Origin: Flavobacteriaceae bacterium LYZ1037
Lineage (GTDB): Bacteria; Bacteroidota; Bacteroidia; Flavobacteriales; Flavobacteriaceae
Assembly (NCBI GenBank): GCA_003144015.1
Contig: QFWS01000006.1
Location: forward strand, 124,001 to 188,000
Reading direction: 5' to 3'
Length of the DNA stretch: 64,000 bases
Below the pieces are notes generated by a model. The model searched no databases and was not told the DNA's origin. It saw only the letters and a list, made by a program, of their open reading frames with translations. Position 1 is the stretch's first letter, and each line of letters opens with the position of its first letter. Positions 4,643 through 11,179 of the stretch are shown piece by piece. A program made the position numbers and the translations under genes.

Positions 4643-5437
4643 TTAAATAATTAAAATACCAACCACGTAACCTTCACTACCTCTAACATTAAAAACAGTA
4701 TCGTCGTCAAAAATTAAGTATTGCCCTTTTATCCCAACTAATTTACCTGTATAATTAGGCGTTTTATCTAAATTTAAACTTTTAGGCTTTTTAGGATACT
4801 TTAAAACTGGAAAAACAATGTTGGTTTCAGAATTAGATTCAATATAATAATCTTTAGCCTCGTCTGGTATATATTGTTTTAATTTGTTTCTCCAAGACAC
4901 TAAGTCTTCATCAGCTATATCATTTTTCAACATAGTACGCCAATTGGTTTTATCTGCTACGTAATCTTTTAAAGCCACTTCGGTAATACCAGCTAAATAC
5001 CTGTTTGGCACCTCAACAATTTCAATAGCTTCATGTGCTCCTTGATCAATCCAACGAGCTGGTACTTGGCTTTTTCTGGTAACACCAACCTTTACATTGC
5101 TAGAATTTGCTAAATAAACAACATGTGGTTGTAGCTGTACTTTTTTCTCGTATTCTAAATCTCGATCTTCCTTATCTATATGAGCCGTACTTAATTCAGG
5201 TCTTATAATCCAATCGGCAGCTTGAGGAATGTCGAAAAAGCAACTCTTACAAAATCCTTGTCTATAAATTGGCCTGTCTAAACTACAGTTTAGGCATTGA
5301 TACTTAACAAATTGAATACTTATGGTTTTACCTAACATCTGGTTCATGTTAATAAAATCTGATTCAAATACTAAATAATATTGAATGGGTTCGAAAAACT
5401 CCGTTGCCATTTTTGTTAAAACACCTTGGTAGGTCAT
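4643..5437 (-). CDS. DUF2797 domain protein with zinc ribbon
   Basis: A 264-residue cytosolic protein, convergent with the GNAT gene (one base between stops). An N-terminal zinc ribbon is formed by C48-x2-C51 and C63-x2-C66. Then comes a segment with the layout of a GIY-YIG nuclease fold: V-V-Y-L-A (106-110), V-K-V-G-V-T-R (115-121), R-W-I-D-Q-G-A (128-134), a glutamate in I-T-E-V-A-L (151-156) and T-N-W-R (164-167). The assignment to DUF2797 rests on the zinc ribbon and the T-R-x(6)-R-W-I-D-Q-G-A motif. Function is unknown; the nuclease-like reading is my inference. It is divergent from the GH3 gene, with only 41 bases between the two start codons. Confidence 0.82.
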   Translation of the reverse strand: MTYQGVLTKMATEFFEPIQYYLVFESDFINMNQMLGKTISIQFVKYQCLNCSLDRPIYRQGFCKSCFFDIPQAADWIIRPELSTAHIDKEDRDLEYEKKVQLQPHVVYLANSSNVKVGVTRKSQVPARWIDQGAHEAIEIVEVPNRYLAGITEVALKDYVADKTNWRTMLKNDIADEDLVSWRNKLKQYIPDEAKDYYIESNSETNIVFPVLKYPKKPKSLNLDKTPNYTGKLVGIKGQYLIFDDDTVFNVRGSEGYVVGILII

Positions 5438-5478
5438 GAAAAAAAGTCTTATTTTTATTTTTTAAATATAATGCAAAT

Positions 5479-6993
5479 ATGCCAATTCCTATAGTTAATT
5501 CTATTGCTTCCTGGTTTTTAAAAAAACGGTTTCATCAAATAGATCTATTTTTAAAATACCCTAACGAAGTTCAGCATGAGCTACTTACGCATCTTTTAAA
5601 TAAAGCAAAAGATACTGAATTTGGCAAACAATATGGTTTTGAATCTATTACAGATTATAAAACATTTACAGAGCGAGTTCCAATATCTACTTATGAGGAA
5701 TATCAAGAAGTTATTGAACGATCTCGAAAAGGAGAAAACAATATCTTTTGGCCACAACCCATTAAATGGTTTGCAAAATCTAGTGGAACAACTAATGCCA
5801 AAAGCAAATTTATTCCAGTAAGTGAGGACTCTCTTGAAGATTGTCATTATGCAGCAAGTAAAGATTTACTATGCATGTATTTAAACAACAATGAAAACTC
5901 ACAATTATTTACAGGAAAAAGTTTACGACTTGGTGGCAGTAAAGAACTTTATAAAGAAAACGGCACAGCTTTTGGCGACCTCTCGGCTATTTTAATAGAT
6001 AACATGCCATTTTGGGCCGAATTTAGCAGTACACCAAGTAGCAAGGTTTCTTTAATGAGTAATTGGGAAGAAAAAATGCAGGCTATTGTAGACGAAACCA
6101 TTCAAGAAAATGTAACAAGTCTGGCTGGTGTACCATCCTGGATGTTGGTTCTATTAAATAATGTTTTAGAAACTACAGATAAAGATAATTTATTTGATAT
6201 TTGGCCAAACCTTGAAGTCTATTTCCATGGAGGTGTTAGTTTCTTGCCATATAAAGACCAGTACAAAAACATATTACCCAAAAAAGATTTTAGATACTAC
6301 GAAATATACAATGCTTCTGAAGGCTTTTTTGCCATTCAAGACCATAACAATTCCAGTGAATTACTGCTCATGTTAGATTATGGTATTTTTTATGAATTTA
6401 TTCCTATGGACACTTATGGCACTAAAAATGAAAAAACAATCCCTTTAAGTGAAGTAGAAACTGATAAAAATTATGCTGTAATTATAACTACAAATGCAGG
6501 ACTTTGGCGTTATAAAATTGGTGACACCGTAAAATTTACTTCGACAAATCCCTATAGAATTAAAGTTACAGGCAGAACAAAACATCATATAAATGCTTTT
6601 GGTGAAGAATTAATTATTGAAAACGCTGAAGACGCCTTAAGAAAGGTCTGTAAAAAAACAAATTCAGAGATTGTAGATTATACAGCTGCACCTATTTTTA
6701 TGCAAGGCAAAGAAAAAGGAGCGCATGAATGGCTTATAGAATTTAAGACACCTCCAACTGATATTAATTATTTTAATGAGCTATTTGACAATGCCTTAAA
6801 GTCTATAAATTCAGATTATGAAGCTAAACGTTACAACAATATGACGTTAAACAAACCCACCATACATATAGCAAGAGAGCAATTGTTTTACGACTGGTTA
6901 AAGCAAAATAACAAACTTGGAGGGCAACACAAAGTACCAAGGCTCTCAAACACTCGAGATTATTTAGATGACTTGCTGCTTTTAAATAAATAG
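5479..6993 (+). CDS. GH3 family acyl-adenylate/amido synthetase-like protein
   Basis: A 504-residue protein of the GH3 family, ANL-type adenylating enzymes known from plants, where they conjugate auxin or jasmonate to amino acids. ATP-binding motif I is visible as S-S-G-T-T (around residue 100), motif II near Y-x-A-S-E-G-F (around 280), and motif III as the Y-x-I-G-D segment (around 350). There is no signal peptide or membrane segment, so it is cytosolic. Bacterial homologues are widespread in Bacteroidota but their acid substrate is not established. The gene stands alone and is followed by a possible terminator (7034-7084). Family assignment is firm; substrate is unknown. Confidence 0.88.
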   Translation: MPIPIVNSIASWFLKKRFHQIDLFLKYPNEVQHELLTHLLNKAKDTEFGKQYGFESITDYKTFTERVPISTYEEYQEVIERSRKGENNIFWPQPIKWFAKSSGTTNAKSKFIPVSEDSLEDCHYAASKDLLCMYLNNNENSQLFTGKSLRLGGSKELYKENGTAFGDLSAILIDNMPFWAEFSSTPSSKVSLMSNWEEKMQAIVDETIQENVTSLAGVPSWMLVLLNNVLETTDKDNLFDIWPNLEVYFHGGVSFLPYKDQYKNILPKKDFRYYEIYNASEGFFAIQDHNNSSELLLMLDYGIFYEFIPMDTYGTKNEKTIPLSEVETDKNYAVIITTNAGLWRYKIGDTVKFTSTNPYRIKVTGRTKHHINAFGEELIIENAEDALRKVCKKTNSEIVDYTAAPIFMQGKEKGAHEWLIEFKTPPTDINYFNELFDNALKSINSDYEAKRYNNMTLNKPTIHIAREQLFYDWLKQNNKLGGQHKVPRLSNTRDYLDDLLLLNK

Positions 6994-7033
6994 CAGGTTT
7001 TTTATCGGAAAAAAAGGTAGAAAAAAAACTTAC

Positions 7034-7084
7034 AACGACTTTTTTTTGTGCTTTGTCTAAAAACCATACTAGTCGTTTTTTTCT
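7034..7084 (+). terminator. Possible terminator of the GH3 gene
   Basis: Seven-base arms AACGACT (7034-7040) and AGTCGTT (7071-7077) run into a stretch of T. The 30-base loop is long for an intrinsic terminator, so confidence is moderate. Confidence 0.45.
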
Positions 7085-7122
7085 TACAATTAAAATACTA
7101 GTTTTACCATGCTATTAATAAT

Positions 7123-7178
7123 AAACGATATTATTTGTCTGGTGTTTATGACAAGTAAATGCCAGATAGATATCGTTT
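7123..7178. repeat. Imperfect inverted repeat, possible structured RNA or element remnant
   Basis: Outer arms AAACGATAT (7123-7131) and ATATCGTTT (7170-7178) are perfectly complementary over 9 bases, and inner arms TCTGG (7138-7142) and CCAGA (7162-7166) stack inside them with an asymmetric bulge. There is no T-run after it, so it does not look like a simple terminator. Confidence 0.5.
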
Positions 7179-7266
7179 CCTAAGATTACATTACCTAAAG
7201 ATTTTTGATAATAGAAATTATATCATAATGTCAAAGTATTAATTAAACATCCATATCCCCTAAATA

Positions 7267-7293
7267 AAAAACCACTCTTTTTGAGTGGTTTTT
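7267..7293 (-). terminator. Terminator of the MerR/B12 regulator gene
   Basis: ACCACTC (7271-7277) and GAGTGGT (7283-7289) with flanking A/T pairs form a stem with a T5 loop. On the minus strand it is followed by a T-run, 29 bases after the regulator's stop codon. Confidence 0.8.
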
Positions 7294-7321
7294 ATTATTA
7301 AAAACGCTTCTTTAATAGGGT

Positions 7322-8194
7322 TTAATACATTGTTTTTAATTTCTCTATCAAATCGTCTGGATGCGACAAATAGGTTATTCGTTTATCTTCCTTAAACCCA
7401 TCTATAATATCTGGGTTTCCAGAAACCAATAATGGAACAGAAGATTGCTCTAAAATAGCATCTAATTTCAGTTTTATAGAATCTTGAGTTGGTGTAATAA
7501 ACATTGACAACAACACTTTTGGGTAAACCACATCAACAACTTTCTTAATGTTTTCTGTTGGTACGTTTTGTCCAAGGTAATACACATTCCATCCCATTTT
7601 TCGAGCTAAAAAGTAAGCTAATAACAACCCAATCTCATGATGTTCATTTTCAGTTAAGAACATTAAAATAACTGGAGCTTTTTTATTGGCATAAGGCAAT
7701 TGATCGATGGCTGAAAACATTTTCTTCTTAATTAAATTAGAAACAAAATGTTCTTGAGCTGGCATTACTTTATTAATACCCCAAAGCACACCAATCTGAT
7801 TTAAAAAAGGATATATAATTTTAGTAGTCGTTAGTAATAAACCATTTTTTTTGATCTGTACGTTCAAGACCGCATCAAATGCTTTCTCGTCCATATCGAG
7901 TGTACTTACAATCAATGCACTGATATCATCTTCTTGCGTACTATCAATTAATTTATTAGCAATGACAGAATTAATTTCACTTTCAGACATTTTATCAATC
8001 TTAGAAATTCGATACCCATTTCGAGTAAGAATACTAATATTCATCAATTTTTTTAATTGTATATCAGTGTAATACCTAATGTTTGTTTCTGTTCTTTCAG
8101 GCGCTAAAAAGCTATATCTAGTTTCCCACTTCCTTAAAGTATGTGCTTTAACACCTGTTAATGCTACAATTTGCGCCATTGAATATGTACTCAT
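7322..8194 (-). CDS. MerR-type regulator with cobalamin-binding domain (CarH/LitR-like)
   Basis: A 290-residue transcription factor: MerR winged helix at about residues 4-70 (M-A-Q-I-V-A-L-T-G-V, then L-R-K-W-E-T-R-Y), a helical B12-cap at 80-165 and a Rossmann B12-binding domain at 170-290. The CarH signature W-x9-E-H is intact (W138, E148, H149), and so is the cobalt-ligand motif E-x-H-x2-G (E184, H186, G189). In the studied CarH the residue after this Trp is the histidine that ligates cobalt after light; here it is Gly139. CarH proteins use adenosylcobalamin as a light sensor and repress in the dark. I chose ATG 8194; the frame extends only to a TTG at 8215. A possible -7 element (TAACTTTG, plus positions 8213-8220) would place the transcript start between them. 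It is divergent from the fasciclin gene, its likely target. Confidence 0.88.
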   Translation of the reverse strand: MSTYSMAQIVALTGVKAHTLRKWETRYSFLAPERTETNIRYYTDIQLKKLMNISILTRNGYRISKIDKMSESEINSVIANKLIDSTQEDDISALIVSTLDMDEKAFDAVLNVQIKKNGLLLTTTKIIYPFLNQIGVLWGINKVMPAQEHFVSNLIKKKMFSAIDQLPYANKKAPVILMFLTENEHHEIGLLLAYFLARKMGWNVYYLGQNVPTENIKKVVDVVYPKVLLSMFITPTQDSIKLKLDAILEQSSVPLLVSGNPDIIDGFKEDKRITYLSHPDDLIEKLKTMY

Positions 8195-8259
8195 GTCTAA
8201 TATTTTACTAAGCAAAGTTAAACAAAAAATAAAGTTAATTGATAGAACTTAAAATTATT

Positions 8260-8343
8260 TTGTCTAACTTTTGTTGTAATTTGTTTGACAAAGAAAATAT
8301 AATTTATATATTTGTCCAAGTTAAATTAAAAAATATTAGACAA
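8260..8343 (+). promoter_or_regulatory. Two spaced inverted pairs of TTNGACAA half-sites (candidate operators)
   Basis: Between the divergent regulator and fasciclin genes are four half-sites in alternating orientation: TTGTCTAA (8260-8267), TTTGACAA (8284-8291), TTGTCCAA (8312-8319) and TTAGACAA (8336-8343). The first and second form one inverted pair, the third and fourth another; both pairs have exactly 16 bases between half-sites. The second half-site covers the -33 and the third covers the end of the -7 of the fasciclin promoter, and the fourth lies just before its ATG. A weaker relative, TTAAACAA, is at 8218-8225. This is the pattern expected of operators for a MerR-type repressor; binding itself is inferred. 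Confidence 0.65.
8285..8314 (+). promoter_or_regulatory. Promoter of the fasciclin gene (Bacteroidota consensus)
   Basis: TTG at 8285-8287, 19 bases, then TATATTTG at 8307-8314 match the TTG-N19-TAnnTTTG promoter of Bacteroidota sigma-A. Transcription would begin near 8320, leaving a leader of about 25 bases. Both elements are overlapped by the TTNGACAA half-sites. Confidence 0.7.
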
Positions 8344-8345
8344 AA

Positions 8346-9770
8346 ATGAAAACAAATAAATTATTAATCGCATTATTTAGTCTTTGTTTATTTATTACAT
8401 CTTGTAGTAATGATGATGACAGTACGACAACAACTCCCCCATCTCAACAAAAAAACATTGTTGAGATAGCCCAAGAAACTCCTGAACTAAGCTCGTTGGT
8501 TACAGCACTCTCTAGAGCAGATGGAAATTTAGTAAACGTATTAAGTGGCAATGGTCCTTTTACAGTTCTTGCTCCAACAAATACAGCTTTTGCTGCATTT
8601 CTTACAGATAATGGTTTTAGTTCCTTAGAACAAGTACCAACAGATGTATTATCGCAAATATTATTAAACCATGTAATTATGGCAGATGTTATGGCTAGCG
8701 ATTTAATCTCAACTGGTTCTGGATATGCTGCTGGAAGTGCAACTGGAGCAGGAGATCAAAACATCAGTATCTTTTTTGATACAGCCAATGGTGTTAGGTT
8801 TAACAATGTCGCTTCAGTAATAAATGCTGATGTAGATGCTTCTAACGGAACCATTCATGTAATTGATGGTGTTTTAGGCCTACCAGATGTTGTAGATCAT
8901 GCCTTAGCTAATCCATCGTTTTCAAGTTTAGTTGCTGCATTAGGAACTGCAGATGGTGATTTAGTTAACGTTCTAAAAGGAACTGGGCCATTTACTGTAT
9001 TAGCACCAGACAACAATGCTTTTGATACTTTTTTAGATGGAACTCCACTTGGAAACGTAGATACAGCAGTGCTTTCTCAATTATTATTAAACCACGTCAT
9101 TATAGGCTCAGCAATAGACTCTAGCATCTTAGTTGATGCAGGAGCAGGATATACAAATACAGGCGCTACTGGTGCAGGAGGGAATTCTATGAGTTTATAT
9201 TATAATACTTCAAATGGTGTCATGTTTAACGGCATTTCAACTGTAGCTCAAGCAGATGTTGTTGGCACTAATGGAATAATTCATGCAGTAGATACAGTCA
9301 TAAACATTCCTAGTGTGGTTACTTTTGCTACTGCAGATCCAAACTTTTCTACTTTAGTACTTGCTTTAACAGAATTAACACCTGCTACCGACTTTGTATC
9401 TATATTATCGAGAACTGAAGGAAGTAATGCAGATGGTATTAATCCAAATTACACAATTTTTGCACCAACAGATGATGCCTTCGATGCTTTAGCTTCTGTT
9501 CCTGCAGAACCGATTTTAACTCAAGTTTTATTACACCATGTTATTAGTGAAGCCAATGTTACTTCTGGAGATTTAAACAATCCTGGAGATACAACTGCTG
9601 CCACTTTACAAGGAGATAATATTACAATTACTCTTCCAGGTACGGGAGATAACATTGCAAATATAACTGATGGTTCTGGAGCTTCAGATGTTGGTGTTAT
9701 AGCTGTAGATGTCCAAGCTGGAAATGGTGTAATTCATGTTATTAATAAAGTAATGATTCCAAATCTATAA
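8346..9770 (+). CDS. Fasciclin (FAS1) lipoprotein with three FAS1 domains
   Basis: A 474-residue secreted lipoprotein. The signal peptide ends in a lipobox (I-T-S-C, Cys20) followed by S-N-D-D-D, an acidic start frequent in exported flavobacterial lipoproteins. Three FAS1 domains follow at about residues 35-180, 180-320 and 320-473. Each shows the H1 motif G-P-F-T-V-L-A-P or its relative Y-T-I-F-A-P and an H2-type ending such as G-x-I-H-V-I-D. Domains 1 and 2 are close copies that share a T-G-A-G loop; domain 3 is more divergent. FAS1 domains commonly mediate adhesion or carbohydrate binding on cell surfaces. The gene is divergent from a CarH-like regulator, which suggests light or B12 control. 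It ends before a hairpin and a strong terminator. Confidence 0.93.
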   Translation: MKTNKLLIALFSLCLFITSCSNDDDSTTTTPPSQQKNIVEIAQETPELSSLVTALSRADGNLVNVLSGNGPFTVLAPTNTAFAAFLTDNGFSSLEQVPTDVLSQILLNHVIMADVMASDLISTGSGYAAGSATGAGDQNISIFFDTANGVRFNNVASVINADVDASNGTIHVIDGVLGLPDVVDHALANPSFSSLVAALGTADGDLVNVLKGTGPFTVLAPDNNAFDTFLDGTPLGNVDTAVLSQLLLNHVIIGSAIDSSILVDAGAGYTNTGATGAGGNSMSLYYNTSNGVMFNGISTVAQADVVGTNGIIHAVDTVINIPSVVTFATADPNFSTLVLALTELTPATDFVSILSRTEGSNADGINPNYTIFAPTDDAFDALASVPAEPILTQVLLHHVISEANVTSGDLNNPGDTTAATLQGDNITITLPGTGDNIANITDGSGASDVGVIAVDVQAGNGVIHVINKVMIPNL

Positions 9771-9823
9771 CATAGGTTATTGAATTTAAATTTAATGAAA
9801 AAGAATAGGTTTTAGTTAGTAGC

Positions 9824-9853
9824 AAACCGGCAATTCTTGTGGTTGTCGGTTTA
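9824..9853 (+). terminator. Hairpin downstream of the fasciclin gene
   Basis: AAACCGGCAA (9824-9833) and TTGTCGGTTT (9843-9852) pair over ten bases with one G-T wobble. The T-run after it is weak, so it may be an accessory hairpin ahead of the stronger terminator at 9895. Confidence 0.5.
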
Positions 9854-9894
9854 ATTATGTTAAAACAATTATGAACAATATTAATTTACAAAAA

Positions 9895-9946: not shown

Positions 9947-11179
9947 TTAAGAAACCGCTTTCAGTTTCTTAATAGTTGTTTTTGTTAACTTTTCTTCAGC
10001 GTAAGCTTTTGTTACCTTAATTTCTTTTTCATCTGTACTAGGCAACTCAAACATAGCATCGGTTAATATTTCTTCGCATAACGAACGCAATCCACGTGCT
10101 CCAAGTTTATATTCTATAGCTTTTTCAACAATAAAATCTAAAGCACCATCTGTAATAGTAAAATCTATTTCATCCATTGCAAACAACTTCTTATATTGCT
10201 TAATAATGGCATTTTTAGGTTCCGTTAAAATGGCTCTCAACGTTTTAGCATCTAATGGGTCCATATATGTTAATACAGGAAGACGTCCAATAATTTCTGG
10301 TATTAAACCAAAATCTTTTAAATCTTTTGGAATAATGTATTGTAATAAATTATCGTGGTCTACACGTTCATCAGACATTGATGCACTATAACCAACGGCT
10401 TGCATGTTTAATCTTTTAGAGATAACTTTTTCAATACCATCGAAAGCTCCTCCTGCAATAAACAGGATGTTTTCTGTATTCACTTCTATAAATTTCTGGT
10501 CTGGATGTTTTCGTCCTCCTTTTGGTGGTACATTTACAACGGTTCCTTCTAACAATTTTAATAAAGCTTGTTGTACACCTTCCCCTGAGACATCCCTAGT
10601 TATAGAAGGGTTATCGCTTTTACGAGCAATTTTATCTATTTCATCAATAAATACAATGCCTTTTTCAGCTTTGTCTAAGTTATAATCTGCAGCTTGCAAC
10701 AAACGTGTTAAAATACTTTCAACATCTTCACCTACATAACCAGCTTCGGTTAAAACTGTGGCATCTACAATAGCTAAAGGCACATTAAGCATTTTAGCAA
10801 TGGTTTTTGCCATGAGGGTTTTACCCGTTCCTGTTTGTCCAACCATGATGATGTTTGATTTTTGAATTTCAATATCATCATCACTAGCTGGTTGTAAAAG
10901 TCTTTTGTAATGGTTATAAACAGCTACCGACATGACTTTTTTAGTCATTTCTTGCCCAATAATATACTCTTCTAAGAATTTTTTAATCTGCTTTGGCTTT
11001 CGCAACATAAGTTCTGCCGAGAGTTCGCTTTGGTCACTTTGTTTAGATTCTTCTAAAACAATACCATGAGCTTGCTCGATACACCTGTCGCATATATGCG
11101 CATCCAACCCTGCAATTAATAAATTTGTTTCTGGCTTTTTCCTACCACAAAACGAACATTCTAAATCTTCCTTTGCCAT
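9947..11179 (-). CDS. clpX: ATP-dependent Clp protease ATP-binding subunit ClpX
   Basis: A 410-residue AAA+ unfoldase. The N-terminal zinc-binding domain has C8, C11, C30 and C33; Walker A is G-Q-T-G-T-G-K-T, the pore loop is G-Y-V-G, Walker B is I-V-F-I-D-E-I-D-K, and sensor 2 is G-A-R-G-L-R-S. ClpX recognises tagged proteins and feeds them to ClpP. I chose the ATG at 11179 (M-A-K-E-D-L-E-C), which is the usual family start; the frame extends a further 8 residues without homologous look. It lies downstream of clpP and tig on the same strand, the classic tig-clpP-clpX order, and ends against a bidirectional terminator. Confidence 0.97.

Follow-up and report, generated by a model that had tools for sequence, protein, structure and literature searches.

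CarH/LitR proteins of Thermus thermophilus, Bacillus megaterium and Myxococcus are B12-dependent repressors of carotenoid genes. The Wx9EH motif is described as capping the adenosyl group in CarH (PMC8156234), the reference B12-binding motif is given as ExHx2Gx41SxV/Tx22-27GG, and the operator repeat as nnnnTnnACAn with the core TnnACA (PMC9304148). According to the latter account, a histidine after the tryptophan provides the bis-His cobalt ligand of the light state in many but not all CarH proteins. Here we analyze a CarH/LitR-type regulator gene and the divergent gene for a fasciclin (FAS1) lipoprotein in a 64,000-nucleotide stretch of the Flavobacteriaceae bacterium LYZ1037 genome (contig QFWS01000006.1, positions 124,001 to 188,000; hereafter the window, numbered from its first letter). 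The initial annotation had read the pair as a possible light- or B12-controlled adhesion switch. Comparison with relatives makes it likely that the two genes were once the head of a carotenoid operon and were kept when its pigment genes were deleted, with a CarH-type repressor acting on FAS1. The pair therefore probably points to carotenoid biology and not to an adhesion switch. The locus has the following features.

7322-8194, minus strand: CarH/LitR-type MerR regulator of 290 amino acids, from domain and homology searches; the open reading frame (ORF) reaches TTG 8215
8213-8226, minus strand: TTTGTTTAACTTTG just 5' of the regulator, possibly its own -7 element plus a degenerate fifth half-site
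8259-8292, no strand: operator pair 1, TTTGTCTAA - N16 - TTTGACAAA (half-sites A and B), from word search, pair scan and locus comparison
8284-8314, plus strand: FAS1 promoter of Bacteroidota type predicted from the sequence, with -33 TTTG (8284-8287), a 19-bp spacer and -7 TATATTTG (8307-8314)
8311-8344, no strand: operator pair 2, TTTGTCCAA - N16 - TTAGACAAA (half-sites C and D), 52 bp from pair 1
8346-9770, plus strand: three-domain FAS1 lipoprotein of 474 amino acids, from Pfam domains and a lipobox-like motif
9771-9855, plus strand: remnant, found by alignment, of the FAS1-crtI spacer of relatives, with no crtI, crtB, crtZ or lycopene cyclase gene after it
9824-9852, plus strand: conserved hairpin of that spacer (AAACCGGCAA...TTGTCGGTTT), with 14 pairs, 5 of them changed on both sides, across 9 sequences
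9947-11179, minus strand: clpX, directly after the scar

In all nine named relatives, whose genome contigs were scanned, the regulator is divergent from the same three-domain FAS1 type, and crtI, crtB, crtZ and a lycopene cyclase gene follow FAS1 on its strand (crtI of L015 is split across two frames). The L021 genes match CrtI (NF058655, above cut-off), SQS_PSY, FA_hydroxylase and Lycopene_cyc, the FA_hydroxylase match being taken as CrtZ; elsewhere, carotenoid genes were identified either by inspection or through tblastn searches with the L021 proteins. A family sample of 249 genomes gave 202 with a regulator match at E 1e-25, and a close orthologue (E below 1e-90) is present in 18 of the 249, LYZ1037 included; the remaining matches listed have 31-39% identity. 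After removal of duplicates by contig or sequence, the close set comprises 27 loci: the window, the nine named relatives, fifteen loci from the family sample and two congeners. In 26 of them the regulator and FAS1 point away from each other; the exception, L038, is without FAS1. Conservation of the pair across Flavobacteriaceae, which the initial annotation had suggested surveying, is thus borne out for a part of the family only.

Carotenoid genes adjoin the pair in 24 of the 26 relatives (9/9 named, 13/15 from the sample and 2/2 congeners, the last judged by the location of PF00494). Of the 24, 18 have the complete FAS1-crtI-crtB-crtZ-cyclase order, nine being named relatives and nine coming from the sample. 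Among the other six, L065 ends in crtI, L070 has crtB and crtZ without crtI, L072 is without FAS1, L079 carries crtI-crtB-crtZ-cyclase after the regulator on the regulator's strand with FAS1 divergent, and the two congeners were read less far. L074 ends at a contig end, with no carotenoid genes seen there. In L075 a 940-residue protein with six Fasciclin domains (5007-7829, plus strand) is divergent from a close regulator orthologue, the operator has one mismatch, and a second regulator match is present in the genome; this locus is possibly a second decoupling from carotenoids. The ancestral order would have been regulator <- operator -> FAS1-crtI-crtB-crtZ-lycopene cyclase.

That no carotenoid gene lies in the window had been recognized before, and L021 queries for CrtI, CrtB, CrtZ and lycopene cyclase indeed found nothing there better than E 0.39; the apparent cause, a deletion, had escaped attention. 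Phytoene synthase (PF00494) has no match in the LYZ1037 genome, which is 99.89% complete, and the best crtI_fam score there is 131 bits, short of the cut-off of 238 (L021 reaches 399.5). PF00494 was found in 6 of 8 genomes of the genus, LYZ1037 included in the eight, and the second genome without it is only 75% complete.

The DNA after FAS1 aligned to the FAS1-crtI spacers of L013, L014, L020 and L021 with scores of 85, 110, 92 and 115, whereas the best scores among 100 base shuffles each were 62, 65, 61 and 75. The next stretch aligned to the clpX end of L013 (81) and L021 (100), scores that include clpX codons and carry no shuffle control. The hairpin alignment leaves out L019; the hairpin, which shows compensatory changes, may set FAS1 expression above that of crt in relatives. 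Beyond the crt block, clpX is found in 7/9 named relatives, directly in three and with one gene between in four; in L014 and L020 it is outside view. The extra cyclase-clpX gene of those four, L021 among them, is also absent from the window. Because the spacer remnant with its hairpin runs into clpX and PF00494 finds nothing in the genome, the crt block appears to have been lost in the window lineage, and the flanking DNA points to a deletion. A search for rhodopsin, as another use for carotenoids, gave no match, and control genomes also gave none.

Between the two genes, TTTGTCNAA or its complement occurs at 8259, 8284, 8311 and 8336 on alternating strands, forming an operator of four TNGACAAA half-sites that covers the FAS1 promoter; they make up two inverted pairs with a distance of exactly 52 bp between them. 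TnnACA is present in each half-site. The -33 TTTG is overlapped by half-site B and the -7 TATATTTG by half-site C, and we take both to be promoter elements by the Bacteroidota consensus; TAnnTTTG is found at half-site C in 24/27 close loci. The exact spaced inverted pair occurs at two places in the 3.19-Mb genome, both here, which upholds the annotated operators. The operator mismatch total, summed over the four sites with one base of play allowed, is 0 to 6 in 26/27 close loci and 9 in L039, whereas none of 108 randomized regions with the same base-neighbor frequencies fell under 7. One distant-clade region has 5 mismatches and nine have 10 or more; these ten come from twelve distant loci, the other two having no start found. 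L038 carries the same operator, with one mismatch, before crtI. In L045/L079 the operator is degenerate (6 mismatches), and the crt genes lie behind the regulator on the regulator's strand, opposite a divergent FAS1, a layout that suggests FAS1 is a target by itself.

With one mismatch, the spaced pair occurs at five places in the LYZ1037 genome, three within ORFs and two overlapping an ORF start, which we treat as background without proof. A wider regulon was considered and rejected: at up to two mismatches there are 42 places versus 55 for the control, and single half-sites are not enriched. FAS1 thus seems to be the regulator's sole detectable target left in this genome.

We infer from this arrangement that a deletion took crtI through the cyclase gene and left the regulator, operator, promoter, FAS1 and FAS1-crtI spacer. 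Most likely, the regulator loaded with adenosylcobalamin (AdoCbl) would bind the four half-sites, cover -33 and -7 of the FAS1 promoter and exclude RNA polymerase. Loss of the adenosyl group through light, or loss of the cofactor, would release it.

Both genes lie where they had been annotated, with the regulator start moved to ATG 8194, likelier than TTG 8215 because relatives' proteins begin at MSxYxMAQ. Pfam recognizes MerR_1 (3e-15) and B12-binding_2 (4.4e-7), with B12-binding below threshold (17.7 bits, cut-off 32.1), and the closest solved structures by sequence are those of T. thermophilus CarH/LitR (3whp and 5c8d, E about 1e-16). Numbered from ATG 8194, W138-x9-E148-H149 and E184-x-H186-x2-G189 are present as claimed; the first motif is kept in 27/27 close orthologues, and in the second the histidine is kept in 27/27 and the last glycine in 25/27. 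The AdoCbl-contact residues are retained, and the AdoCbl-binding domain is assigned a fold like that of T. thermophilus CarH (TtCarH). At E 1e-3 the LYZ1037 genome has no second copy of the regulator.

The CarH-like signature stands as far as these motifs go, but a glycine at the bis-His light-switch position had gone unnoticed: the window regulator lacks the histidine after the tryptophan. At the TtCarH His132 position, 25 of the 27 close orthologues have Gly and 2 have Thr, while the Trp131, Glu141, His142 and His177 positions do not vary. Family analogy makes light control likely, yet it is doubtful here given the missing histidine, and light sensing is uncertain because of the glycine. An alternative, which we regard as plausible though not favored, is that the regulator senses AdoCbl supply, AdoCbl driving DNA binding and light having no effect since the His132 switch is missing. 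The substitution pattern fits this idea, as does one report that TtCarH H132A is mostly tetrameric in light (PMC10442372); an earlier report cited within that paper saw H132A disassemble in light.

A second alternative is that the carotenoid loss is recent and that the regulator and FAS1 are passengers on their way out. LYZ1037 is alone in lacking PF00494 among the 7 genus genomes that are at least 90% complete. Relative to the L021 branch, the nonsynonymous rate (dN) of FAS1 on the window branch is 1.85, 1.05 and 1.53 with three outgroups, that is, raised with two of them. Regulator dN is not raised (0.82, 0.67 and 0.73). Beyond the regulator lie genes for a GH3-family protein (5479-6993, plus strand; the family of plant auxin conjugases) and a DUF2797 protein (4643-5437, minus strand), both also present in 9/9 named relatives. 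The corresponding ratios are 1.37, 1.43 and 0.81 for GH3, 1.53, 0.93 and 1.88 for DUF2797, and 1.61, 2.14 and 0.91 for a gene encoding a 147-residue acetyltransferase-like protein. The neighbors span 0.81 to 2.14, so FAS1 does not stand out among them, and its raised dN is no sign of relaxed selection particular to this gene. Against L021, the ratio of nonsynonymous to synonymous rates (dN/dS) is 0.10 for FAS1, 0.11 for the regulator and 0.03 to 0.19 for the three neighbors, with dS from 0.7 to 1.5, near saturation. On average, then, the regulator and FAS1 appear still to be constrained, although part of the branch predates the deletion, and the constraint need not reflect a function of FAS1 without carotenoids. 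As the two ORFs, the four half-sites and the promoter are all intact, decay of the pair is a tentative reading that we consider rather unlikely.

The FAS1 product scores over the PF02469 Fasciclin cut-off (217.6 bits, three domains), has a lipobox-like ITSC near its N-terminus, and matches the structure of AstaP (8c18) by sequence at E 1.2e-10; the predicted structure was too poor for use (predicted local distance difference test, 40.6). One further Fasciclin domain only was found in the genome, in a short single-domain frame (G000:C30:167395-167760, L022). Most likely, FAS1 is a surface lipoprotein linked to carotenoids that might bind, store or deliver pigment or protect the envelope from photo-oxidation; adhesion is a possible role of FAS1 itself. 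The initial proposal, in which FAS1 is a surface adhesin whose control by the regulator, ancestrally shared with pigment genes, switches attachment by light or B12, now seems improbable. In its favor are the family name and the lipoprotein nature of FAS1, its intact state after crt loss, the six-domain pair in L075 away from crt genes, and the description of adhesion as the common FAS1 function in the AstaP paper (PMC10147662). Nothing beyond the name Fasciclin speaks for adhesion, however, and a switch set apart from carotenoid biology is not supported, because carotenoid genes adjoin the pair in 24/26 relatives and were lost in the window. Finally, an assembly fault may underlie the crt absence, but the window contains no N.

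Several observations weigh against a CarH-type repressor left at the front of a carotenoid operon. The downstream part of the B12 motif is altered, with x40 and SMF replacing x41 and SxV/T, and SG replacing GG. The CarH equivalog NF052513 gives the regulator 95.9 bits (E 2.4e-27), far under the cut-off of 400. Gly in place of TtCarH His132 would also count here, given that H132A stays mostly tetrameric in light according to one report. The four half-sites form two inverted pairs 52 bp apart, whereas TtCarH and B. megaterium CarH (BmCarH) use tandem 11-bp repeats. The window holds 14 such half-site words versus 7.4 expected, a number reached in 2/100 shuffles; these say little because the looser single half-site TTTGTCNAA-N{0,1}NTT shows no enrichment across the genome (29 + 35 versus 97 + 60 for the reversed control). 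L075 carries the pair with no crt genes within 5 kb, and FAS1 staying intact without carotenoid genes may indicate a carotenoid-independent role.

If the retained-operon reading is correct, FAS1, a poorly understood bacterial surface protein family, would be tied to carotenoid synthesis clade-wide by gene order and shared operators. The window would then offer a natural deletion experiment, the pigment genes having disappeared from around a surviving regulator, operator and FAS1. In addition, this CarH branch has no light-switch histidine and shares a distinct, conserved operator design, so that natural proteins could be used to test what the histidine does. More speculatively, and with little confidence, FAS1 lipoproteins heading Flavobacteriaceae CarH-type carotenoid operons could be a bacterial class of carotenoproteins anchored at the surface, with a CarH variant that lacks the bis-His switch controlling both them and the pigment they carry; LYZ1037, its pathway lost, would have kept the two genes in order to acquire or retain carotenoids made by neighbors.

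With the CarH/LitR systems the locus shares MerR DNA-binding and AdoCbl domains, Wx9EH, ExHx2G, the TnnACA half-site core, an operator over promoter elements and, in relatives, adjoining carotenoid genes. It differs in Gly or Thr at the His132 position, in the changed SxV/T and GG, and in having FAS1 as the first target. In Bacteroidota merR carotenoid clusters, described for Nonlabens and Echinicola (PMC11855829, PMC8683446), the MerR gene lies inside the cluster, as first gene in Nonlabens; the word fasciclin has no occurrence in the available text of these papers. The distant regulators resemble those clusters, directly preceding crtI (10) or crtB-crtZ (2) on the same strand in 12/12 loci examined. 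Unlike the window, these 12 loci, of 3.7-3.8 kb each, have no FAS1 match, and an inverted-pair operator is found in 1/10 at most. Titles and abstract beginnings in the open-access literature yielded no bacterial FAS1-carotenoid operon, and the combination of CarH, Bacteroidetes, carotenoid and MerR yielded nothing there. AstaP of green algae shares with the window protein a FAS1 domain by sequence and a connection with carotenoids and light stress. It is algal and water-soluble, whereas the window protein is a predicted lipoprotein and a candidate carotenoid binder; AstaP is reported to show that a FAS1 domain can do so, although its homologue SynAstaP of Synechocystis did not (PMC10147662). 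In Chryseobacterium lacus, a gene for a lipocalin-type outer-membrane lipoprotein is described beside crt genes and light-induced with them (PMC7064467), which gives a precedent for carotenoid genes with a lipoprotein partner.
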